10,000 nucleotides of DNA from Treponema sp. GTDB taxonomy: Bacteria; Spirochaetota; Spirochaetia; Treponematales; Breznakiellaceae. The notes below the pieces were generated by a model, which worked only from the letters and a program-made list of their open reading frames with translations, ran no database searches and had not been told where the DNA came from. Shown here piece after piece: positions 1 through 10,000 of this stretch. The stretch covers positions 1-10,000 of the forward strand of contig JAIWNU010000001.1 of NCBI GenBank assembly GCA_020216655.1, read 5' to 3'. Position numbers and translations under genes: made by a program. Numbering within the stretch: position 1 is the stretch's first letter; the number at the start of each line of letters is the position of its first letter.

Positions 1-6
1 ACCACA

Positions 7-1359
7 ATGAATCCTGAAACCTGGGGGTGGAAGGGTATATTTCACGGCTTCTGGCAATCCGCATGCCACGAAGATGGCAGAAAATACATTCCCGGCCGCG
101 TAATCCGGCGGGAATATCATCAATATGATGTGGTCATACCCCACTATATTGATGAAAATCCGATGCTCGCGTCTGCTTGTACGGCGGGTCTGTACCGCAA
201 CATACGGGTAAGCGGCGCTTTTGCATTCCGGACCACAGGAGGCGCTGATTACCCCGTCACCGGCGACTGGGTGCTCCTTGATACGGAAGAAGACAGCCTG
301 CGGATTCACCGGGTTCTAGAACGGCAAACTTCCTTAAGCCGGGGCGCGGCGGGGGATAAAACGGAAGAACAGGTGCTGGCGGCTAACATCGATACGCTGC
401 TTCTCGTGTTTGCCCTGGACGGGGGCCGGAATTTTCTCCGCACCTTTCTTGAGCGGGCCCTAGTGGTTGCCCGCAGCGCAGGCTGCGGGGTTTGCATAGT
501 CCTTAATAAGGCGGACCTAGCGGATGCTGAAACGCGCCGGAACGCTTTAGCTACCGCTGCTCTGGCCGCTCCGGGAAGCCCCGTAGTGGCGGTCAGTGCG
601 AAAACTGGAGAGGGTTTAGAGGAACTGAGCCGTTACTTCTCTGCCGGAGAAACCCTGGGTGTGCTTGGTAAAAGCGGGGTAGGGAAGTCTGCCCTGATCG
701 GGGCCCTAAATGGTGTTAAGGGCGCCCCTCTGGCGGCCACAACTTTGCCGGGCGCCCCATTGCCGGACACAACTTTGCCGGGCGCCAGCGCATCCATCTC
801 GTCATTTGAAGAACTCCCCTGGGACGCCCTGGACGCCCCGAAGTCCCTGGAGGCCCAGAATACCCCGGACGCCCCGCAGACCCTAGAGGCTCCGGAGGCA
901 CCGGACGCCCACCTGGGCGGCCCCGGCGCCTTGGCCGAAGAAGCCACACCCCGGGAAGGGGCTGTCCGGGAATCGGACCGCAAAGGACGGCATACTACTA
1001 CTTCAAGCAGGCTCTACCGGCTTGAGTCAGGACTTCTCATTATTGACAGCCCCGGAATCCGGGAACTCAAGCTCTGGGCCGATGGGGATGATCTGGCAGC
1101 GAGCTTTTCCGATATTGCAGGACTAGCGGACCAATGCCGTTTCTCCGACTGCAGCCACGAGGGCGAGCCGGGCTGCGCGGTCCAGGCTGCCCTGGCTTCT
1201 GGTGAGTTAGATGAGGGCCGTTACCGCTCCTACCTGCAGCTTAAGCGGGAACAGGCCTGGCTGGACCGCCGGCTCGATGACCAGGCCCTGCGGGCGGAAA
1301 AGGCCCGCTGGAAGCAGATTGCCAAATTCCAGAAGAGCCTGCAGAAAAGCCGGCGTTAG
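7..1359 (+). CDS. rsgA: RsgA: circularly permuted ribosome small-subunit-dependent GTPase, with a repeat insertion
   Basis: RsgA (YjeQ/YloQ) is a cytoplasmic GTPase that binds the 30S subunit late in its assembly and is released on GTP hydrolysis. The 450-residue product shows the family's permuted motif order: an N-terminal OB-fold region (about 30-90), G4 NKAD at 167-170, G5 SAKTG near 199, the P-loop GKSGVGKS at 221-228, switch I RHTTT at 328-332, G3 DSPG at 347-350, then a zinc-binding knuckle with C377, C382, H384 and C390 and a basic C-terminal helix. Family members are usually about 300-370 residues. The excess lies in residues 239-317, a Pro/Ala/Asp-rich repeat insertion between the P-loop and switch I. 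All GTPase motifs are intact, so it is probably functional. The MNPETWGW start resembles the N terminus of this RsgA subgroup, but only six bases precede it and the ribosome binding site is out of view, so an earlier start cannot be excluded. The identification is very secure. Confidence 0.95.
   Translation: MNPETWGWKGIFHGFWQSACHEDGRKYIPGRVIRREYHQYDVVIPHYIDENPMLASACTAGLYRNIRVSGAFAFRTTGGADYPVTGDWVLLDTEEDSLRIHRVLERQTSLSRGAAGDKTEEQVLAANIDTLLLVFALDGGRNFLRTFLERALVVARSAGCGVCIVLNKADLADAETRRNALATAALAAPGSPVVAVSAKTGEGLEELSRYFSAGETLGVLGKSGVGKSALIGALNGVKGAPLAATTLPGAPLPDTTLPGASASISSFEELPWDALDAPKSLEAQNTPDAPQTLEAPEAPDAHLGGPGALAEEATPREGAVRESDRKGRHTTTSSRLYRLESGLLIIDSPGIRELKLWADGDDLAASFSDIAGLADQCRFSDCSHEGEPGCAVQAALASGELDEGRYRSYLQLKREQAWLDRRLDDQALRAEKARWKQIAKFQKSLQKSRR
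721..786 (+). repeat. 30-base tandem repeat inside rsgA (two full units plus a stub)
   Basis: Two adjacent 30-base units (721-750 and 751-780) each begin GGCGCCCC and end ACAACTTTGCCG. A third unit breaks off after GGCGCC (781-786). In frame they encode the 10-residue repeat APLAATTLPG / APLPDTTLPG. The units differ at only a few bases, so the duplication is probably recent. The length is a multiple of three, so the reading frame is kept. Confidence 0.9.
832..909 (+). repeat. 36-base tandem repeat inside rsgA (two units plus a stub)
   Basis: Units at 832-867 and 868-903 both begin GACGCCCCG and encode DAPKSLEAQNTP and DAPQTLEAPEAP. A third copy starts at 904 with DAH and then diverges. The units are more diverged than the 30-base pair just upstream, so they are likely older. 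Together the two repeat blocks make up most of the extra sequence between the P-loop and switch I of this GTPase. Confidence 0.8.
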
Positions 1360-1422
1360 TTTTGGGGAGTGGCGGGTAGCGGGTATTGAGCCGGGTCGGG
1401 GCTTGGCCTTCGGGCTCCCTTA

Positions 1423-1445
1423 GCCAGGCCGGGGCTGGGCCTGGC
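1423..1445. repeat. 8-bp perfect inverted repeat (possible RNA hairpin)
   Basis: The arms GCCAGGCC (1423-1430) and GGCCTGGC (1438-1445) flank the 7-base loop GGGGCTG. Transcribed, this would form a stable GC-only stem 64 bases past the rsgA stop codon. No T-run follows, so it is not a canonical intrinsic terminator. It could still act as a 3'-end-stabilising hairpin or be part of an intergenic repeat element. Confidence 0.6.
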
Positions 1446-1582
1446 GGACGAGTTTTGGTCGCGGCTTGGGCCAAAACCGGCTGTCCGCTTGCGTGCCCGC
1501 CGCCAGCCCTTACGGCCAGCCAGCGCCCTAAAAGCCGCTGCAATTGCATTCTCCATCAATCTGTACGAGACTCTTAACGAAT

Positions 1583-1588
1583 AAGGAG
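1583..1588 (+). promoter_or_regulatory. Ribosome binding site fixing the helicase start
   Basis: AAGGAG lies ten bases before ATG 1599. An in-frame TAA at 1575-1577 with no start codon between it and 1599 makes this the first possible start. Confidence 0.85.
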
Positions 1589-1598
1589 CATCGTACTG

Positions 1599-4500
1599 AT
1601 GGAAAGCTTGTACAGGATTTTAAAAACCAACATTCCGGAGCCAGGCCCGGAAACAGACCCGCAACCCAGTTTAATAACAGACCCGCAGCCTGACGTGGTC
1701 GCAAGCCCGCAGCCTGGCGCGGCAGCAGGGTATGCCGCGGGGCTCTTCCTCCTCCCCGGGGCTACCGGCACCGGCAAATCCCATGGGGTGTGCCAATACA
1801 TCGCGCGGCATGCCGGGGAATGGAAACAAGCGGGGTTAAAAATTTATTTTACCACCCGCATGCTCAAGAATATCCCCGATAATCACTCATCATCGAACAA
1901 AATAAATCAAGACGAAGAGGATCTGGACTTTTTTTCTACCACCACCCTGCGCCGGGCCTATGAAGCGGCGGGCCGGAAAAAGGATTACGAAAAAGAAGTC
2001 CTGGTGCTCCGGGGCATGCACACCCATCTTACAGAGTCCTGGGAGAAACTCAGTCCAGAAATCGACTCTGGGGTAGCTGCAATTGCAGAAGATGCCAAAG
2101 AACCAGAACTGGTACCGATCTATGAACAGTACAAGCGGGAAGTAGAGTTTTTTATCAAATATGGGAAGGACGACAAAAACGACGAAGCCGCGAGTTTCTA
2201 TGCCGCCCAGCGCCGCTTTCTTGCGGCCCTGCACCGGATCCTGGAACAAACAGTTCCCGAGAAAGAGAACCGCACCCGTGAAGAAATAATAAAGGAAAGA
2301 GAACAGCTTCTGTTCAAGAAAAATTCCCCCTGGGCCTGGATCCCTGAGCTCTGGCCCGATCACCGGGTATCCCGCTCTACGGTGATACTCCTTTCCCTCC
2401 GTAAATTTTCACTCCCCCTCATTTCGGTCCTGGAACGAAACGGGCCGGTAAAGGACAGCCTCAGCGAAGGGTCCCTCGTGTTTATCGACGAATTCGATGA
2501 TGCAAAAACGGCGTTTCTGGACTTTGTTATAGAAGAATCCTTACAGCACAAAGTGGACCTTATGGAGCTGGCCCGAACCGTAGGTGCTTCGATACTGCAA
2601 AATACCTTTATTCCTCCCTTTCTTTTGACCCATGCGTCGGGAAACAAAGAAAAAACAGAACAATGGATAAAAGAGAAAAATGAACAGTTTGATAAACTCA
2701 GAAAGCAATATAGTGATATAGCAGCTCGCTATCATTTAGCGGCGAATCCCAAGCTTCGCCATACGGGGCAAAGCCAGTCCGTCTTTTTATGCCGATCCTG
2801 GCAGCCCTTTATCTGGAGCGGCAAAGGAACGGAAAAAGTAATTAACTATTCCCCGGAAGATCAGCTTAACTGGATAGAGGATGCAAAAACGAAGCAGCAG
2901 AGTGAGGACCAAAAGGTTGATGAACAAAAAGATGATGTAGAAAATGCCCGTGGGGAGCCAAGCCTCCAAAAATTTGTGCAGGACCTCCTCTGGTTCATCA
3001 ATCATTTCCTGCAGCTTTGTAATGATATTGTGCTCAATAAAAAATACTATCTTGCCCATGTCCGGCAAAAAGCCGGAGAGAACAATTTGATAAACTGGAG
3101 CCTCGAGGATTACATCTCCAGCGTGGTGCGCCATTTTGTACCCGAAAACGCCACCATCGGCGAGTACCTCCAGTATCAGCTTGCGAGCCTGCAGTACGCA
3201 GCTCCCCACTGGAAAATCCATCCCGGCTGGTTCGACGGGGATTCCTTTTATACCAACGGCTTTACCGAGTTCTTTCTGGAAGACTCCCCCCGAAACGAAG
3301 CCCGGACCGCAATTAACATGATAAGCCTGAGCGCCACCCCGGAACTCTGGCTGAGTAACCTGGCCAGGCGGGCCTTTGTCGTGGGCCTTTCTGCCACAGC
3401 CTATGTGGACCAGCCCCTTACCAACTTTGATCTGGGCTACCTGCGGAGGACCCTGGGGGCACAATTTAAAACCATCTCAGAATCTGATATGCGCCTGCTG
3501 CAGAATCTCTATGATTCAGCCACGAAGGGATACGACAACATAACATTCCTGCCAGAGAAGCCCGCCCTGGAATACTACGAAGAGACAACACAGGAACAAA
3601 CCATCGAACGGTGGGCCCGCTGGCTGCACAGGGATAAAAATATGGCAGTATCAGTGAGGAATGAGATTGGCTTGGCCAGCGATAAAATCAATAAAAACGA
3701 CATACCATTTGTAATCCGCCGCTATGATATGGTCTTTCAAGCCATGACCTATTTTGCCAGGACTGCGAGTAATCGGATCATGTATTGTGTAAATCCAAAT
3801 CTGTTCGGCGAGGATAGGTTTTATTCGTCTAAGCCTTTAGAAATATTCAAAGATGGCTTACCGGCCGCGTCTAGCACATATAGCCCCCAGGGAAGCGGCG
3901 GATGGAACCTGATCTGCATGGATTCAAAAAATTATGAACTACTACAGAAAGAGATAAAAGAAGGTTTGGCAAAAGGGGAGCGGTATTTTGTGGTCACGAG
4001 CTTTCCTACCATTGGCCGGGGGGTAAATCTGCAATACCGGTTGGACCCAGAACAGCCTGCAGCCCCAGCCCTAGCACCGGACATTGTGGCAGTGCATGAA
4101 CACCCCCGGAACGATGAAACCGAAGTCGACGCGGATGGAATCTGCATCGCCAAACCCACCAATATAGTAGTCTCCAATGCCGGTGCCTTTTGGTCAGAGA
4201 AAAACACCTTTCAGCGCCTCGTGCAACTCCATTACCTTGCAGCGGCAGGTTACATTACCCATCAGAAACTCAAAGAGTATATCATCAGAACCGTATCAGG
4301 GGTGCCCTTCTCGCTGGAAGATAGCAGCGCAAAGGATGCAATCAATCTTGCGGTCGCATCGACCGTGCTCCAGACCTTGGGAAGGATTACTCGGACCGGG
4401 AAACGGATGCGCCAGGTGCATATACTCTGCGACCCGGAAATTCCCGGCCTGCTTGCGCAAACCTATCTCCCTCAGGAAGTTATTAAAACAAAAGAGTATC

Positions 4501-5339
4501 TCCACATGTGCGACCATAAAGAAAACACCGATCGGTCCTATGACAAGGAAGCCCGCTTCATCGAAGCCGAAACCCTGTCCCTACAGGGGATAATTAAAAA
4601 TCTGATCGCCAATTTTGATAAAGAACAAAACCGGAAAGACTGGCAAAATCTCAGGCGCTATTTATTAGCCCACCCCACATTCAATCACATGAATGAAGCG
4701 GAATTTAAGCGCTGCTATTGCGAAATCCCCGGCGGCAAAAACCGCTACTATTTTGAAACGAATGGCGATTTTGCAAGCTGCCGTGTTGCTTTTGAGCAAA
4801 GCCCAGGGACCACCTGGGCTGAGGTGTCAGAAGAGAGTTCAGGGCTCCCCAGATTGATGAACATAGCCGGCGTCCAGGACTTTTTAACGAACAAAGGGTA
4901 TGCCACATCCTGGGCTCCTGGGGCAGTATTTATGAATCCCGTGGCCTTTACGAATATCTACCGGGGGGCTCTGGGAGAGGCGGCGGCGGAGTTCTTCTTT
5001 AGTAAGATCTTTGGGATTAGATTGCAGGAAGTTGAAGCAGAACATTTTGAGTCTTTTGATTTTAAGTTTATCAATGCTCAAAACCAGGTGTGGTATGTGG
5101 ACGCAAAGTTCTGGAAAATAGGCCCCCAGCTTCCTGATGAGGAAGAGCAGCAGCGAATTGCGGAGAAATTACACCGCTGCGGCGGAACGCGGGCAATCGT
5201 TATCAATTTTTATCCCGCCGAAACAGAACCTGAACGTTGCCTGCTTCCTTCACTACCCGAACTCGTTATTATTCCCGCCGCCTTTGTCGGCGATAAACCG
5301 TGGCAGGCGGCAGTCGATGCAATCAAAGGGGTACTGTGA
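1599..5339 (+). CDS. SF2-type helicase with C-terminal PD-(D/E)xK nuclease, DdmD-like
   Basis: This 1246-residue cytoplasmic protein probably translocates on and cuts DNA. Helicase motifs: Walker A GATGTGKS (54-61, K60), Walker B DEFD (297-300), SAT-type motifs SLSATP (576-581) and GLSATA (596-601), motif V near TIGRGVNLQ (804-812), and motif VI Q925-xx-GR-xx-R932. The C terminus has a PD-(D/E)xK nuclease core: E1127, D1154 in FDF, then D1168-A-K1170. All expected active-site residues are present. A charged, helical stretch of about 230 residues separates Walker A from Walker B. It has only one cysteine (C64), so there is no Fe-S cluster of the XPD/DinG type. A Lys/Gln/Asp-rich linker lies near residues 430-450, and a Pro-rich repeat near the N terminus. 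The stop overlaps the next gene's start (TGATG), so the two are co-translated. Order, length and active-site placement resemble DdmD of V. cholerae, about 1,190 residues from memory. Helicase-nuclease is well supported; the DdmD assignment is inference. Confidence 0.88.
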   Translation: MESLYRILKTNIPEPGPETDPQPSLITDPQPDVVASPQPGAAAGYAAGLFLLPGATGTGKSHGVCQYIARHAGEWKQAGLKIYFTTRMLKNIPDNHSSSNKINQDEEDLDFFSTTTLRRAYEAAGRKKDYEKEVLVLRGMHTHLTESWEKLSPEIDSGVAAIAEDAKEPELVPIYEQYKREVEFFIKYGKDDKNDEAASFYAAQRRFLAALHRILEQTVPEKENRTREEIIKEREQLLFKKNSPWAWIPELWPDHRVSRSTVILLSLRKFSLPLISVLERNGPVKDSLSEGSLVFIDEFDDAKTAFLDFVIEESLQHKVDLMELARTVGASILQNTFIPPFLLTHASGNKEKTEQWIKEKNEQFDKLRKQYSDIAARYHLAANPKLRHTGQSQSVFLCRSWQPFIWSGKGTEKVINYSPEDQLNWIEDAKTKQQSEDQKVDEQKDDVENARGEPSLQKFVQDLLWFINHFLQLCNDIVLNKKYYLAHVRQKAGENNLINWSLEDYISSVVRHFVPENATIGEYLQYQLASLQYAAPHWKIHPGWFDGDSFYTNGFTEFFLEDSPRNEARTAINMISLSATPELWLSNLARRAFVVGLSATAYVDQPLTNFDLGYLRRTLGAQFKTISESDMRLLQNLYDSATKGYDNITFLPEKPALEYYEETTQEQTIERWARWLHRDKNMAVSVRNEIGLASDKINKNDIPFVIRRYDMVFQAMTYFARTASNRIMYCVNPNLFGEDRFYSSKPLEIFKDGLPAASSTYSPQGSGGWNLICMDSKNYELLQKEIKEGLAKGERYFVVTSFPTIGRGVNLQYRLDPEQPAAPALAPDIVAVHEHPRNDETEVDADGICIAKPTNIVVSNAGAFWSEKNTFQRLVQLHYLAAAGYITHQKLKEYIIRTVSGVPFSLEDSSAKDAINLAVASTVLQTLGRITRTGKRMRQVHILCDPEIPGLLAQTYLPQEVIKTKEYLHMCDHKENTDRSYDKEARFIEAETLSLQGIIKNLIANFDKEQNRKDWQNLRRYLLAHPTFNHMNEAEFKRCYCEIPGGKNRYYFETNGDFASCRVAFEQSPGTTWAEVSEESSGLPRLMNIAGVQDFLTNKGYATSWAPGAVFMNPVAFTNIYRGALGEAAAEFFFSKIFGIRLQEVEAEHFESFDFKFINAQNQVWYVDAKFWKIGPQLPDEEEQQRIAEKLHRCGGTRAIVINFYPAETEPERCLLPSLPELVIIPAAFVGDKPWQAAVDAIKGVL
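1656..1727 (+). repeat. 24-base tandem repeat near the helicase 5' end (three units)
   Basis: Three head-to-tail 24-base units (1656-1679, 1680-1703, 1704-1727) encode DPQPSLIT, DPQPDVVA and SPQPGAAA at residues 20-43, just before the Walker A motif. The CCGCA(A/G)CC core is shared by all three. The stretch looks like an in-frame expansion in a flexible N-terminal tail, in the same style as the repeats in rsgA. Confidence 0.8.
5325..5331 (+). promoter_or_regulatory. Ribosome binding site inside the helicase gene, deciding the downstream start
   Basis: AAAGGGG lies in the last codons of the helicase gene, seven bases before ATG 5339. It supports that start over the in-frame ATG at 5300. The start codon shares its A with the upstream TGA stop, a classic translational-coupling layout. 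Confidence 0.75.
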
Positions 5340-7672
5340 TGATAGAAACTAACAAACTAATCTACACCTATAACGCAGAAGCAATTAACCGGGATTATCA
5401 GCTCATCAAGCTAAACTCAAAAGAATATGGGCCAGATGAGAAGCCAAAATTTATTGGCTATGTGGATTTTTATGAGGCCCTTGAAAACACCCCCGGTGTG
5501 GCCGCCCTGGTGGGAAAATGGAGATACTGGTATCTATTGGCCGATAGAAAGGTCGTTACCCCAGAGGAGGTTATTCGCACCCTTTCTCAGCACCGGGACT
5601 TACAGGCCATGGAAATAGTCCCCGCCCAGGTCGTACGTGAAGAGGAATTTGCATCAACCAAAAATAAGGAGACCTCGCTGTACGGATATTATGTGGTCCA
5701 GCTTTTGTTGGATCTCCTTGGTTATAGACATTTCGGCTTAAAAGAATACCAGTTTTCCAATATCACCTCTGAACTGCTCCTTGTCCCAAAGGATACTCCC
5801 GCAAAAAGCATACTCGATGTCTGGTGGATACGGCTGAAAAAGCCGCAGAGTCTTGTCATATCTAAAACACGTTTAAGCCGGGTAAAAGACAGGAAATACA
5901 TCTTAAACAGCACTAATCCCCTTTTTACGATTAACACCGCCACAAGGACCCTTAAAAGCATCAGCCGAAGCAGCGCCCTCACGTTGGATAAAAATAAACC
6001 CCTGTACGAATGGCGCAATCCTTTTGATTCCCGGCCGGTGGTTCCCTTTGCCGATCTGGAAGACCCCCTGTCGGATCAAACCAGAATCGGTATTTTTGCC
6101 GATGTGTTTTCCCTCATCGAAGGAGAACTAGCTCCCTATGTGAGTGTAAGCCGGGACCCCCTTGGCTCCTGGCAGATGGTCCATGGTCTCCAGGTGTTAA
6201 AAAAGACAGCCCCAGGCAGGGCGGACAGCGAAAAGGACTACGAAGGCCGGGCTAGAGAACTTATCGGTTCGGTTACTCTTACATCGGAGCCAAAAAACGA
6301 AAACGCCGAAGAGCAGCTTGCGGCGCTCATGTCTGCAAAGGGGATCCGGGTAACAAAAAAAGCCAAGCTCGGTCTTGCAATTGTGCCTTCCAAAGAAAGC
6401 CTTGCCGAAGATGATGAGGATCCCTATGTCAGGGAACGGGGGGTGCAGCATATTACGTTTGATTCCCTGGGAAATGGAAATGAAGAAAAGGATTCGAGGG
6501 AACTAGATTCTATCATCACTAAAATACTGTTTGAATTGGCGGTCAAGCAGGATTGTATGACCAACACGCTCCGTTTTGGCAAAGAACTTGCCCTTTCGGA
6601 ACCCTATCGCCTGGGGTTCTTTGTACAGAAAGCCAGAAAGAACCGCACGCAAAAGAGCATCCCCGAACTGCTTCATATCCCGGTGCTCGATGTGTTCCCC
6701 GATGGGTCTATTAAATTCCAAACCCTGCATCACGAGGCGAGCCTCTTAATCCAGCAGCCCGATTTTGACCGCTATGCCCATGCTTTTACCCAGGCCATCG
6801 ATGAGAAATTCATGGAAGAGGCTGGATATGCTTACTATCAACTGATTGGTTTTGTAGAAAATGCGAGAAAAGAAATTACCCTGCTCGCCCAGACCGATTA
6901 TTGCTCTCTTATGAATATGGACATCCTGCGAAGCAGGGGCGAACAGCTTGCAAAGCCGCTGCCCGAAGTCTGGACAACCTTCGCGGGTATAGGTAAAAAG
7001 TTGGCGGACCTTAAAAATGCAGCCTCTGAGAGCGGTGCGCCCCATCAGGCTGATAAGCACCACCGGACTGACGCGTCCCACCGTGAAGCGGAAATCGCCT
7101 TTTTTACGCTGGACCATGAAAAAGCCTGCGCCGCTTTGGCTGAACTTGAGTCTGCAAAGACTGAAAAAACTAAATCCTTGCCTGAAAAACTTAAATCCTG
7201 GATTGCCGCTTTCCGTCAGGATCCCCGTGCCCCGCTTGATAAGGACACCCTCCGGACCTTGCTTAATGCGCAATTCGGCGCCGCATCCCAGGCACGGGAC
7301 TTTGTTGCTGAAGCCCTCGAACGGGAAGGGGTACTCCTTAACCTACCCCGCTCCCAGGAGGCAAAGCAAAAGGAGCTTTCGTTTAAGTCGGGGCTTCAGG
7401 TGTGTCCGGTTACCATAAAGAGCAAGAGTGCCCGCTATTATTTTACCGGCTTTCCTGTAGGAGCGGCCCTTAAAACCATAATACCCCGCGCCTCGGTGAT
7501 CCGCGTTGCCATACCTGCGGGGGACCATGAACCGTTTTTTGAAGAGCTGGCCCCGACCTTTCTTCCCTGGATTCGGGTCGATGAAGGGACCGTGCTCCCC
7601 GGAGCCTTTAAGTACCTCCGGGAATATGCCCTCATGGAGGGGGTGGCCCTGAGGGATTCCCTTGCCGATTAG
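5339..7672 (+). CDS. Large helicase partner; possible catalytically inactive Argonaute-like (DdmE-like) protein
   Basis: I do not recognise this 777-residue protein by overall sequence. The centre has a pattern like an Argonaute MID domain: a hydrophobic strand (LGLAIVP), then RERGVQHITFDSL (365-377), then an amphipathic helix ending ELAVK (K403). The MID counterpart would be a strand, a short motif with a conserved Gln, and a helix with a conserved Lys. Next come two PIWI-like strands, YRLGFFVQK (423-431) and HIPVLDVFPDGSIKF (446-460). The first strand lacks the Asp expected of a slicer, so any PIWI fold is probably inactive. No signal peptide, membrane helix or Walker motif is visible. A His/Lys-rich, low-complexity stretch lies at about 560-585. 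The start at 5339 is chosen over 5300 because of the ribosome binding site and TGATG overlap. Coupling to a helicase-nuclease suggests the DdmDE pair, where DdmE is an inactive Argonaute of about 690 residues. A pPIWI_RE-type relative is the main alternative. Confidence 0.9.
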   Translation: MIETNKLIYTYNAEAINRDYQLIKLNSKEYGPDEKPKFIGYVDFYEALENTPGVAALVGKWRYWYLLADRKVVTPEEVIRTLSQHRDLQAMEIVPAQVVREEEFASTKNKETSLYGYYVVQLLLDLLGYRHFGLKEYQFSNITSELLLVPKDTPAKSILDVWWIRLKKPQSLVISKTRLSRVKDRKYILNSTNPLFTINTATRTLKSISRSSALTLDKNKPLYEWRNPFDSRPVVPFADLEDPLSDQTRIGIFADVFSLIEGELAPYVSVSRDPLGSWQMVHGLQVLKKTAPGRADSEKDYEGRARELIGSVTLTSEPKNENAEEQLAALMSAKGIRVTKKAKLGLAIVPSKESLAEDDEDPYVRERGVQHITFDSLGNGNEEKDSRELDSIITKILFELAVKQDCMTNTLRFGKELALSEPYRLGFFVQKARKNRTQKSIPELLHIPVLDVFPDGSIKFQTLHHEASLLIQQPDFDRYAHAFTQAIDEKFMEEAGYAYYQLIGFVENARKEITLLAQTDYCSLMNMDILRSRGEQLAKPLPEVWTTFAGIGKKLADLKNAASESGAPHQADKHHRTDASHREAEIAFFTLDHEKACAALAELESAKTEKTKSLPEKLKSWIAAFRQDPRAPLDKDTLRTLLNAQFGAASQARDFVAEALEREGVLLNLPRSQEAKQKELSFKSGLQVCPVTIKSKSARYYFTGFPVGAALKTIIPRASVIRVAIPAGDHEPFFEELAPTFLPWIRVDEGTVLPGAFKYLREYALMEGVALRDSLAD

Positions 7673-7676
7673 GAGC
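7671..7676 (+). promoter_or_regulatory. Ribosome binding site of the DUF2200 gene
   Basis: AGGAGC overlaps the TAG stop of the upstream gene (7670-7672) and lies eight bases before ATG 7685. This placement supports a shared transcript and possible translational re-initiation. Confidence 0.8.
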
Positions 7677-7684
7677 TAATAAGT

Positions 7685-8035
7685 ATGAACAACGAACGAC
7701 TATACCGGATGTCCTTTAGCCAAGTGTATCCTCTGTATGTTGCCAAGGCGGAACGCAAGGGGCGCACCAAAGAGGAAGTAGATCAGATTATTTTTTGGCT
7801 CACCGGTTATGATGCGGAGGGGCTTGCCGCTCAGATACGGAAATCAGTAGATCTAGAAACTTTTTTTGCCGAAGCTCCCCAGTATAATCCCAACGCGGAC
7901 ACTGTTACCGGAGTTATCTGCGGCGTTCGTGTAGAAACTATTGAAGACCCCCTTGTGCGCAAGGTGCGTATTTTGGAAAAGCTTATCGATGAACTTGCTC
8001 GGGGAAAAAAGCTAGAAAAGGTTCTGAAGCTCTAG
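7685..8035 (+). CDS. DUF2200 family protein
   Basis: The 116-residue product matches the DUF2200 family (Pfam PF09966, from memory) along its whole length. Family-typical stretches are ERLYRMSFSQVYP at the N terminus, KAERKGRTKEEVDQIIFWLTGY (residues about 20-41, where a helix ends in a conserved Trp-Leu-Thr-Gly-Tyr), ETFFAEAPQYNPN in the middle, and ICGVRVETIEDPLVRKVR near the end. The function of the family is unknown to me, and the protein is usually encoded as a small stand-alone gene. It is soluble, with no signal peptide or membrane helix. It begins 12 bases after the helicase partner gene on the same strand, so it is probably co-transcribed. That may mean it works with the helicase-nuclease pair, or only that it shares a promoter. 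The family call is firm; the role is open. Confidence 0.92.
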   Translation: MNNERLYRMSFSQVYPLYVAKAERKGRTKEEVDQIIFWLTGYDAEGLAAQIRKSVDLETFFAEAPQYNPNADTVTGVICGVRVETIEDPLVRKVRILEKLIDELARGKKLEKVLKL

Positions 8036-8066
8036 GCCGGTTTCAAAATTCTGCCGCTGTTATTTT

Positions 8067-8094
8067 TTGCAATAAAAAATGATACCCATATACT
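8067..8094 (+). promoter_or_regulatory. Sigma-70-type promoter for the histidine kinase gene
   Basis: TTGCAA (8067-8072) and TATACT (8089-8094) are separated by 16 bases in an AT-rich 66-base gap between DUF2200 and the kinase. Transcription would start near 8100-8103, right at the first ATG (8102), so the message may have almost no leader. A T6/A6 hairpin-like stretch lies within the spacer region but is too weak to count as a terminator. Confidence 0.5.
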
Positions 8095-8104
8095 ATAAGG
8101 TATG

Positions 8105-9892
8105 ATGAGTCCAAAAGGGTCCCTGATTTGTATAAACCTTTTTCTCTGGACCGGCATACTGCTCTTCGGAGCGGAGGACCCATTAAAGGTCTTAATTCTC
8201 CATTCCTACCAGACCGATTACCCCTGGACGGGGGCAATACAAAGAAGGATAGAAACCGTACTGAGTGAAGGAAGTTCTATCAATGTAATCATTAAGACTG
8301 AACACTTGGATACTAAGCGCCTCTGGACTGAAGCAAGAAAGACCCTGTTTGTACGCTACCTGGAAGAGCAATACAAGGCTTATAAGTTCGATGCTGTCAT
8401 CGTGAGCGACAACGATGCCTATAATTTTATGATCCAATATGGAGACACTCTCTTCGGCCAGATTCCGTGGGTTTTTTGCGGAGTAAACGATCCAGACCTT
8501 ACTGTGCTTAACCAATACAGATCCCGCGTAACAGGGGTTATAGAATATGTAAATTATGAAAAAACTTTACACTTAATACAAAGCCTTTTGCCTGATCTAC
8601 AAACCTTATTTGTGCTTGCGGACGAAACCACAACCGGGATATTGAACAAAGCCGAATTTAAATCCCAAATGGCAGCCATGGGACAACCAGTGCCCTATGA
8701 AATACTCGCCCCTGCAAGCTTTCAAGAAATTCTTAATCAAGTATGCCGCCTCCCAGAACATACTGCAATCCTCCTGCTTGCCTATTCTCAGGATAGCAAT
8801 GGAACCTATATCCCCTATAAAAAGGTTGTTCGTTCTGTAAGCGCAGCTGCCTCCGTTCCGGTTTTCGGTGTTTGGGACTTTAACATGGGGCAGGGTATAC
8901 TCGGCGGAGCCATCACTTCGGGTTTTGAACAGGGCAAGCAGGCAGCGGGCATGCTTATAAGGATACTGGAGGGCACGGAACCGCAGAATATTCCTTTACT
9001 ACATCTAAAAGATACGCCTCTTATGATAGACTGGCAGCAATTACAGCGCTGGAGTATACCGAAAAACAGGCTGCCCAATGGGACCGTTATTTTGAACAAA
9101 GCGCCCAACATCATTGCAGAAAATCCACACATTGGAATTATCATCGTATTTCTCTCATTTATAATTGTTATACTTGGTGTATTTATAATTCTATTAAAAA
9201 GAGCCCAGAGTACTTTAAGAGCATCCCAGATCAAACTGAAACAAGAACTCCAGGAAAAGGAAATGCTCCTTCGGGAGGTACACCACAGGGTTAAGAATAA
9301 CCTTCAAATAGTGGCAAGCCTGCTTCATTTGCAGCAAAGCTATACGACTAATCCCGAAACCCAGTCGGTATTGCTGGATACCGAGAACCGGATCCGTAGC
9401 ATGGAACTGGTTCACGAAGAGTCCTATGAACAGGAGAGTTTTGAAAAAGTCGATCTGGTACAATATCTTTGTTCTCTAGGCAGTTATTTAAGTTCCATTT
9501 CATCAAACGAATTCACCTGTACTTTTGAGTGTTCTGGTCATGAGAATTGCGAATCCATATATGTGCCGCTCGAATGGGTAATCCCTTTTGGCCTCCTCAT
9601 GAACGAACTGATCACCAACTCAATTAAGTATGCCCATGGAGAACAGGAGTTATGCGGTATTTATGGCTATATTGAGCGGATTGATGAGCATGTGGTGCGC
9701 TTAACCTACTGGGATTCAGGTCCGGGGATACCAAAGGAGTATTCCTTTGATAAACCGGAAACCCTAGGATTCCAGTTGATGAATGTCCTTGCCCAGCAGT
9801 GCAATGTCCGGCTTCTCCGGGACGAAAAGAACCTCAGTAAAATTTATATCCTCATTACAATCGATCAAATTACAAAAGCCGGTAACATTTGA
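8105..9892 (+). CDS. Membrane sensor histidine kinase: ABC_sub_bind-like periplasmic sensor, HisKA_2 and HATPase_c
   Basis: This is the sensor half of a two-component system. Residues are counted from ATG 8102. A signal peptide (about 1-24, hydrophobic LICINLFLWTGILLF, likely cut after FGA) is followed by a periplasmic region (about 28-340) resembling the ABC_sub_bind fold (PF04392), with the typical VLILHSYQTDYPWT opening. One membrane helix (344-365) and a short coiled coil lead to a HisKA_2 dimerisation domain, EVHHRVKNNLQ, with H395 as the probable phosphorylated histidine. The HATPase_c domain has an N-box with N506, G1 DSGPGIP (538-544) and G2 LGFQL (555-559). All kinase motifs are intact. 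No response regulator lies within the window, so the partner is downstream or elsewhere. The ligand is unknown; a small molecule bound in the periplasm is likely. ATG 8102 and 8105 are both possible. I chose 8105 because AAGG (8097-8100) sits four bases before it and only one before 8102. It appears to be transcribed separately from the upstream operon. Confidence 0.9.
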   Translation: MSPKGSLICINLFLWTGILLFGAEDPLKVLILHSYQTDYPWTGAIQRRIETVLSEGSSINVIIKTEHLDTKRLWTEARKTLFVRYLEEQYKAYKFDAVIVSDNDAYNFMIQYGDTLFGQIPWVFCGVNDPDLTVLNQYRSRVTGVIEYVNYEKTLHLIQSLLPDLQTLFVLADETTTGILNKAEFKSQMAAMGQPVPYEILAPASFQEILNQVCRLPEHTAILLLAYSQDSNGTYIPYKKVVRSVSAAASVPVFGVWDFNMGQGILGGAITSGFEQGKQAAGMLIRILEGTEPQNIPLLHLKDTPLMIDWQQLQRWSIPKNRLPNGTVILNKAPNIIAENPHIGIIIVFLSFIIVILGVFIILLKRAQSTLRASQIKLKQELQEKEMLLREVHHRVKNNLQIVASLLHLQQSYTTNPETQSVLLDTENRIRSMELVHEESYEQESFEKVDLVQYLCSLGSYLSSISSNEFTCTFECSGHENCESIYVPLEWVIPFGLLMNELITNSIKYAHGEQELCGIYGYIERIDEHVVRLTYWDSGPGIPKEYSFDKPETLGFQLMNVLAQQCNVRLLRDEKNLSKIYILITIDQITKAGNI

Positions 9893-9918
9893 AAATTACG
9901 TCTCCCTGCATTTTTTTC

Positions 9919-9946
9919 TTGACAAGCTGGAAAAGTATGCTATTCT
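9919..9946 (+). promoter_or_regulatory. Strong sigma-70-type promoter for the gene past the window edge
   Basis: A consensus TTGACA (9919-9924) is followed after 16 bases by TATTCT (9941-9946), in AT-rich DNA just after the kinase stop. A T7 run (9911-9917) sits directly upstream. Transcription would start near 9952-9954, inside the first palindrome. Confidence 0.8.
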
Positions 9947-9949
9947 ATG

Positions 9950-9975
9950 TTTAACCGGTTAAATAAACCGGTTAA
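9950..9975. promoter_or_regulatory. Pair of AACCGGTT palindromes, probable LacI-family operator
   Basis: TTTAACCGGTTAAA (9950-9963) is a perfect 14-bp palindrome. A second copy, TAAACCGGTTAA (9964-9975), keeps the AACCGGTT core with one arm mismatch. The centres are 13 bp apart, and both lie over or just after the predicted transcription start. Palindromes with a central CCGG and A/T arms are typical of LacI-family repressor sites. A bound repressor here would block initiation or early elongation. The regulator itself is not in the window. Confidence 0.7.
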
Positions 9976-9986
9976 AAAGCTATTCC

Positions 9987-9993
9987 AGGAGGA
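9987..9993 (+). promoter_or_regulatory. Ribosome binding site of the next gene
   Basis: AGGAGGA is a near-perfect Shine-Dalgarno match. With usual spacing, the start codon should begin at about 9998-10003, so the final A of the window may be the first base of an ATG. No residues of the protein can be read here. Confidence 0.85.
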
Positions 9994-10000
9994 ATTTTTA

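Follow-up and report, generated by a model that had tools for sequence, protein, structure and literature searches.

A divergent DdmDE gene pair, probably a guide-directed plasmid-elimination system, in a Treponema genome

Which system do two overlapping genes near the start of a Treponema contig encode? The genes lie in a stretch of 10,000 nucleotides, referred to here as the window (positions 1 to 10,000 of the forward strand of contig JAIWNU010000001.1, assembly GCA_020216655.1). A first-pass annotation, made from the sequence alone, had suggested that they form a DdmDE-like defence pair of a helicase-nuclease and an Argonaute-like partner, belonging either to a distant branch of DdmDE or to a separate helicase-Argonaute system. 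We find that the first open reading frame (ORF1) is, by its sequence, DdmD and that the second (ORF2) is DdmE, and we consider it very probable that the two genes constitute a DdmDE system, encoded in a coupled operon and bringing about guide-directed plasmid loss.

1599..5339, plus strand: ORF1, ddmD, a superfamily 2 (SF2) helicase with a C-terminal PD-(D/E)xK nuclease, 1246 amino acids (assigned by PADLOC, PDB entry 9ix4, profile, and tree)
1776..1778, plus strand: lysine K60 of the Walker A motif ATGTGKS (K in 80 of 81 DdmD rows)
2487..2498, plus strand: Walker B motif DEFD, residues 297-300 (D297, E298, and D300 in 81/81 rows, F299 in 80/81)
4371..4394, plus strand: helicase motif VI QTLGRITR, residues 925-932 (Q925, G928, R929, and R932 in 81/81)
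4977..5108, plus strand: PD-(D/E)xK nuclease core, E1127, D1154, D1168, and K1170 (each in 81/81)
5337..5341, plus strand: TGATG stop/start overlap between ddmD and ddmE, read from the sequence
5339..7672, plus strand: ORF2, ddmE, Argonaute-like, 777 amino acids counted from the ATG

ORF1 matched the PADLOC DdmD model with an E-value of 2.1e-35, and a single-sequence search returned the solved DdmD of Lactobacillus casei (9ix4, E 7.7e-43) and that of Vibrio cholerae (E of about 2e-32). A profile built from ORF1 and seven relatives (alignment A1) spanned 9ix4 over profile positions 7-1145, with an E-value of 9.5e-123. The combination that characterizes DdmD, SF2 motifs and a C-terminal PD-(D/E)xK nuclease in a single protein of roughly 1200 amino acids, is found in ORF1, where the nuclease core reads D1168-A-K1170. 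The only row without K60 is that of locus L024, which shows a gap at this position and begins at the edge of a contig. The underlying alignment of 81 rows holds the window, 7 database proteins, and 73 loci; 7 of the 80 sampled loci, whose longest DdmD piece was at most 900 amino acids, were left out of this alignment and of the DdmD tree. As the motifs are retained across these 81 rows, they are not a product of chance. The first-pass annotation had placed both ORFs, their sizes, and their overlap correctly and had read the same helicase and nuclease residues. Its description of the pair as extended holds to a slight degree: DdmD is indeed longer, with 1246 amino acids against 1190-1220 for the solved chains, mainly through an N-terminal insert at approximately residues 15-45 and a second one near 430-460.

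The link between ORF2 and DdmE first came through the genes that adjoin distant DdmD proteins. In a single-sequence search of the PDB, ORF2 reached DdmE only at an E-value of 0.069, and among 5.8 billion proteins five close homologs were found, after scoring of the 7999 candidates that shared most words with it. A profile of ORF2 and these five homologs matched 48 of 639 ORFs of at least 120 amino acids at E < 1e-3, distributed over 47 of 87 loci (two of these loci are pieces of the window). No fewer than 44 of the 48 begin at most 300 bases from where DdmD ends; the remaining four lie further along, in loci where the gene following DdmD is in pieces. The best match of this profile of the window's own clade (described below) outside Treponema was in Methanoculleus (L022, E 1.1e-16). 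In the reverse direction, a profile of 65 DdmE sequences from outside this clade recovered ORF2 from 644 sequences at a score of 152 bits (E 5.7e-46) and matched nothing beyond the DdmE set. Alignment of the clade with the other 65 DdmE by hhalign gave an E-value of 2.4e-49; a comparison of the clade alignment (A4) with the full DdmE alignment (A3) was discarded as circular, since A3 includes the members of A4. The predicted structure of ORF2 (predicted local distance difference test 85, predicted template modelling score 0.86) has an Argonaute fold, and its six best structural matches are all DdmE chains, so that on the predicted structure ORF2 has the fold of a long prokaryotic Argonaute (pAgo) nearest to known DdmE. 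Together, the profile from outside the clade and these fold matches identify ORF2 as DdmE.

The two genes are joined by a single base. The TGA stop codon of ORF1 occupies 5337-5339, and its A is the first base of the ATG of ORF2 at 5339, immediately preceded by a stretch AAAGGGG that resembles a ribosome-binding site; a longer in-frame version of ORF2 starts at a GTG at 5300. The TGATG arrangement suggests translational coupling of ddmD and ddmE. The order itself, with ddmE directly following ddmD in a predicted operon, recurs in other genomes. When genome_contigs was searched with the DdmD alignment, at least 100 loci were confirmed and 80 of them kept, and in 72 of these 80 an iterated profile detected a DdmE-family gene after DdmD; as the loci come from a pattern-based sample, this fraction is no census. 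Four of the misses lie at a contig edge (L019, L065, L068, L082), and in L015, L018, L040, and L079 no DdmE was detected in the 300 bases that follow DdmD. The DdmE-like partner foreseen by the first-pass annotation was thus borne out by the fold of ORF2 and by this co-occurrence, checks that it had proposed.

Both trees place the window in a clade of its own. In the DdmD tree, the clade comprises seven rows (the window, P0007, P0008, P0009, P0010, L003, and L004), with a support of 100 in the Shimodaira-Hasegawa-like approximate likelihood ratio test (SH-aLRT); its stem measures 1.84 changes per column. The DdmE tree contains a matching clade of eight rows, also with an SH-aLRT of 100 and with a stem of 2.02. 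The trees came from quick searches with SH-aLRT as their only support and contain no V. cholerae or L. casei sequences; DdmE pieces of at most 500 amino acids were left out, and places where long branches meet were flagged, among them, in the DdmD tree, that of the window clade with L077 and one other. The distances of one tree are correlated with those of the other, with r = 0.886 over 65 pairs (uncorrected for shared host history) and 0.844 without the window clade; none of 2000 permutations reached the observed value (best 0.40), pointing to correlated evolution of DdmD and DdmE.

What would such a pair do? According to PMC12409362 and PMC12904381, DdmE, a long pAgo without catalytic activity, locates plasmids by means of DNA guides. 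Once recruited by DdmE, the inactive DdmD dimer separates, and DdmD moves along the non-target strand, its cleavage depending on the nuclease (one sentence of PMC12904381 interchanges the names DdmD and DdmE). As far as can be read from the sequence, the components required for this mechanism are present here. By extension from the published work on V. cholerae and L. casei, in which guides, recruitment, and plasmid destruction are described, DdmE of the window would take up short DNA guides and pair them with plasmid DNA. Target-bound DdmE would then recruit DdmD, which would otherwise be kept inactive; DdmD would load onto the displaced strand, translocate by means of its SF2 motor, and cut with its C-terminal PD-(D/E)xK nuclease, leading to loss of the plasmid. 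Most likely, the pair eliminates plasmids under the direction of guides, like its counterparts in Vibrio and Lactobacillus.

Several observations weigh against this assignment. ORF2 passes no Pfam, NCBIfam, or PADLOC model, and its sole Pfam line, DUF6907 with an E-value of 0.82, is below the cut-off. A profile of the clade by itself reaches solved DdmE only at the C terminus (9iw3, E 4.1e-5), and the structural match to the DdmE chains is loose, with a root-mean-square deviation of 4.6-7.8 at 14-16% identity. In 4 of the 80 sampled loci, DdmE is missing beside DdmD although no contig edge accounts for it, and part of the correlation between the trees may reflect shared host history. The system is also rare, with a DdmD match in 3 of the 392 genomes sampled from the phylum and DdmE in 1 of the 58 sampled from the family (the window's genome counted in both). 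Finally, five clade members have replaced 29 of 69 columns that are conserved in the DdmE family, and the function could have shifted as a result.

That no family model recognizes ORF2 would fit a separate helicase-Argonaute system, for instance of the ApsAB type, whose identical gene order arose by convergence. ApsAB of Escherichia coli ST38 likewise pairs a helicase-nuclease with an Argonaute-like protein and acts against plasmids; PMC11096173 describes ApsB as lacking sequence similarity to DdmE and as having the MID motif Y-x3-K-xn-QG-xn-K. ORF2 does not carry this motif, as it has no QG and its sole Y-x3-K is at residue 20, but this comparison, confined to the motif, discriminates poorly: 3 of 70 DdmE rows (L031, L043, L051) match the motif in a loose form. 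Moreover, both genes of the window score with DdmD and DdmE in sequence and in fold, and we regard convergence of this kind as very unlikely. Of the options named by the first-pass annotation, the distant branch fits, and the separate system finds no support. The ApsAB paper (PMC11096173) already describes a broad DdmD/ApsA family, so that the window most likely holds a deep member of known DdmDE rather than a separate system. No paper linking DdmDE with Treponema or spirochaetes was found in a library of papers under CC0, CC BY, and CC BY-SA licences. We see the clade as a deep-branching addition to known DdmDE that may, with modest probability, be a functional variant.

The rarity among relatives could also mean that the pair is a decaying or inactive remnant. 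However, both ORFs are full-length and free of stops, and the DdmD residues named above are retained. In comparison with L003, the ratio of nonsynonymous to synonymous substitution rates (dN/dS) is 0.21 and 0.20 for the two genes at a dS of about 1 (dS in comparison with L004 is saturated). The values indicate that, on these coding sequences, both genes are under purifying selection, and decay is scarcely credible.

A further alternative is that the pair derives from DdmDE and has kept its architecture, with altered target or guides, acting for example against phages and not plasmids. Here, the replaced DdmE columns are concerned, two groups of which lie in or near the following motifs.

6446..6547, plus strand: ddmE segment of residues 370-403, a likely MID guide-end motif (putative assignment to MID; alignment A3)
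7589..7627, plus strand: ddmE C-terminal TVLPGAFKYLREY motif, residues 751-763 (alignment A3)

H350 and Y356 of the family, located just before the first segment, are replaced in the clade, and the C-terminal motif has GA instead of FP. Among the 69 columns with a conservation of 75% or more in the other 65 DdmE, 31 are retained by the five clade members compared, 29 are replaced, and 9 are mixed. Together with the long stems in both trees, these replacements speak for such a change. Against this, Q370, H371, K403, D405, and KYLRE are retained in all five members, and the active residues of DdmD are unaltered. In the printed alignment, the tyrosine is likewise missing from the DdmE of L. casei, and the replacements in the clade thus need not imply a new function. 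As to the catalytic acidic residues of PIWI, which a DdmE would lack, the comparison was made at the level of alignment columns: after residue 410, E762 is the only acidic column kept in at least 90% of the 70 rows of A3, and 3 of the other 7 acidic columns there (at least 60% of rows) hold a gap, N, or G in the window. All in all, we find an altered target or altered guides improbable. The changes in the MID and C-terminal motifs do seem to leave room for a functional variant. It is conceivable, if doubtful, that the clade represents a distinct DdmDE subtype, in which a remodelled MID pocket and C-terminal motif would serve a different end or type of guide, or another class of target, than in Vibrio and Lactobacillus, with the same DdmD effector.

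If the window holds a deep DdmDE branch, how did it come to be there? L003 and L004, its nearest named loci, are metagenome-assembled genomes of Treponema, in agreement with the spirochaete host surmised from the sequence, and the clade occurs in three Treponema-type genomes plus unplaced proteins. No DdmE partner of P0009 and P0010 emerged from a second protein-database search with A4, which returned the same five proteins (7999 candidates scored). Other Treponema DdmDE (L025, L033, L038, L055) share the genes, their order, and the phylum, but lie in different branches of both trees, and DdmDE has thus probably reached the spirochaetes more than once. Treponema bryantii NK4A124, of the same order as the window's genome, has three DdmDE loci, two of which are related (L025 and L038), with L033 in another branch.

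The immediate surroundings bear on the same question.

7-1359, plus strand: RsgA-type GTPase (rsgA), upstream of ORF1
1378..7684, plus strand: DNA absent beside rsgA in the relative G263, approximate (blastn; right limit deduced)
7685-8035, plus strand: DUF2200 protein (Pfam PF09966, E 1.3e-50)
8102-9892, plus strand: sensor histidine kinase with an ABC-substrate-binding-like part (ABC, ATP-binding cassette)

At its rsgA end, the window shares 90-91% identity with G263, and this similarity stops at 1377, 18 bases past the rsgA stop. In the 9 kb of G263 beyond this breakpoint, blastn found no match to the operon, and whole-genome searches of G263 gave no DdmD or DdmE match. Similarity to L003, in turn, is limited to 1738-7657, that is, to the operon and not its flanks. 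These two comparisons suggest that ddmDE is a cassette that moves as a unit.

DUF2200, which starts 12 bases 3' of ddmE, was considered as a third component and rejected. By tblastn, none was found in L003, L004, L113, or L114, and it is present in 12 of 58 family genomes, against 1 of 58 for DdmE; both argue that it is not part of the system. The window's genome is 2.66 Mb in 251 contigs and 89.6% complete, and the contig of the window has a length of 10,000 bases. Promoter and terminator scans of the window gave counts near or somewhat above those of shuffles (8 vs 6.3, and 16 vs 10.4 with a standard deviation of 4.2), supporting no call. Residues ~240-310 of the RsgA-type GTPase, apparently of low complexity, fall between two matched pieces in the relatives G263 and G194. 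At the other end, the 55 bases at 9941-9995 are 93% identical to G194, just upstream of an opposite-strand gene, and are perhaps a shared upstream region of the next gene.

The characterized systems differ from the window's pair in length and sequence. In L. casei DdmDE (9iw3, 9ix4, 9ixm), DdmE has 715 amino acids (777 in the window) and DdmD 1192 (1246 in the window), and ORF2 is 16% identical to DdmE; with V. cholerae (8u0j, 8u3k, 9bgk, 9ezy; DdmD 8u0u, 9bf1), DdmE identity is 14%. The Vibrio operon, as described in PMC12409362, has a WYL-domain gene upstream, whereas the window has rsgA. DdmE proteins of methanogens and Methanoperedens (L007, L013, L020, L022, L074) group with the window clade at an SH-aLRT of 98, across the long branch of 2.02; as this grouping is not repeated in the DdmD tree, the sisterhood is unsure. 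Archaeal DdmDE pairs were seen in these five loci and in L049, all from methanogens or Methanoperedens.

Some DdmD loci depart from the standard arrangement. The Firmicutes DdmD-like genes L018:5827-11555 and L040:5866-11264 pair in the DdmD tree, have no adjoining DdmE, and have among the genes that follow an N6 methylase (L018) and a C5 cytosine methylase (L040), possibly representing a DdmD effector coupled to modification rather than to an Argonaute. By eye, DdmD without DdmE lies beside an ABC-transporter-like ATPase gene in L015:2166-5705 and beside an unrelated ORF in L079:5935-9396. In L009:9440-14082, DdmE-family matches flank two minus-strand genes (9993-12301), resembling a gene split by insertion. 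Three plasmid records have a DdmD match: Nostoc pn2 (L129), Lactobacillus intestinalis unnamed2 (L130), and Persicobacter pPP11 (L131). The 65-sequence profile identified the gene after DdmD as DdmE in the first two, in which an anti-plasmid system is carried by plasmids. With the same profile, the next gene of pPP11 (762 codons including the stop) had no DdmE match, and it may encode a further type of DdmD partner. Phages gave no match by tblastn, and of 53 stretches in viral_contigs that fit the two peptide patterns, none was confirmed.

The locus adds a divergent, intact spirochaete branch to DdmDE. It also makes clear that present DdmE models overlook deep branches: the PADLOC model has no match in the window and, as it matches only 26 of 70 aligned DdmE rows at an E-value of 0.01, misses much of the family. 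Comparison with the DdmDE of Vibrio and Lactobacillus would reveal which features of DdmE are truly needed for guide loading, and an anti-plasmid system in spirochaetes could influence how readily these bacteria retain plasmids.
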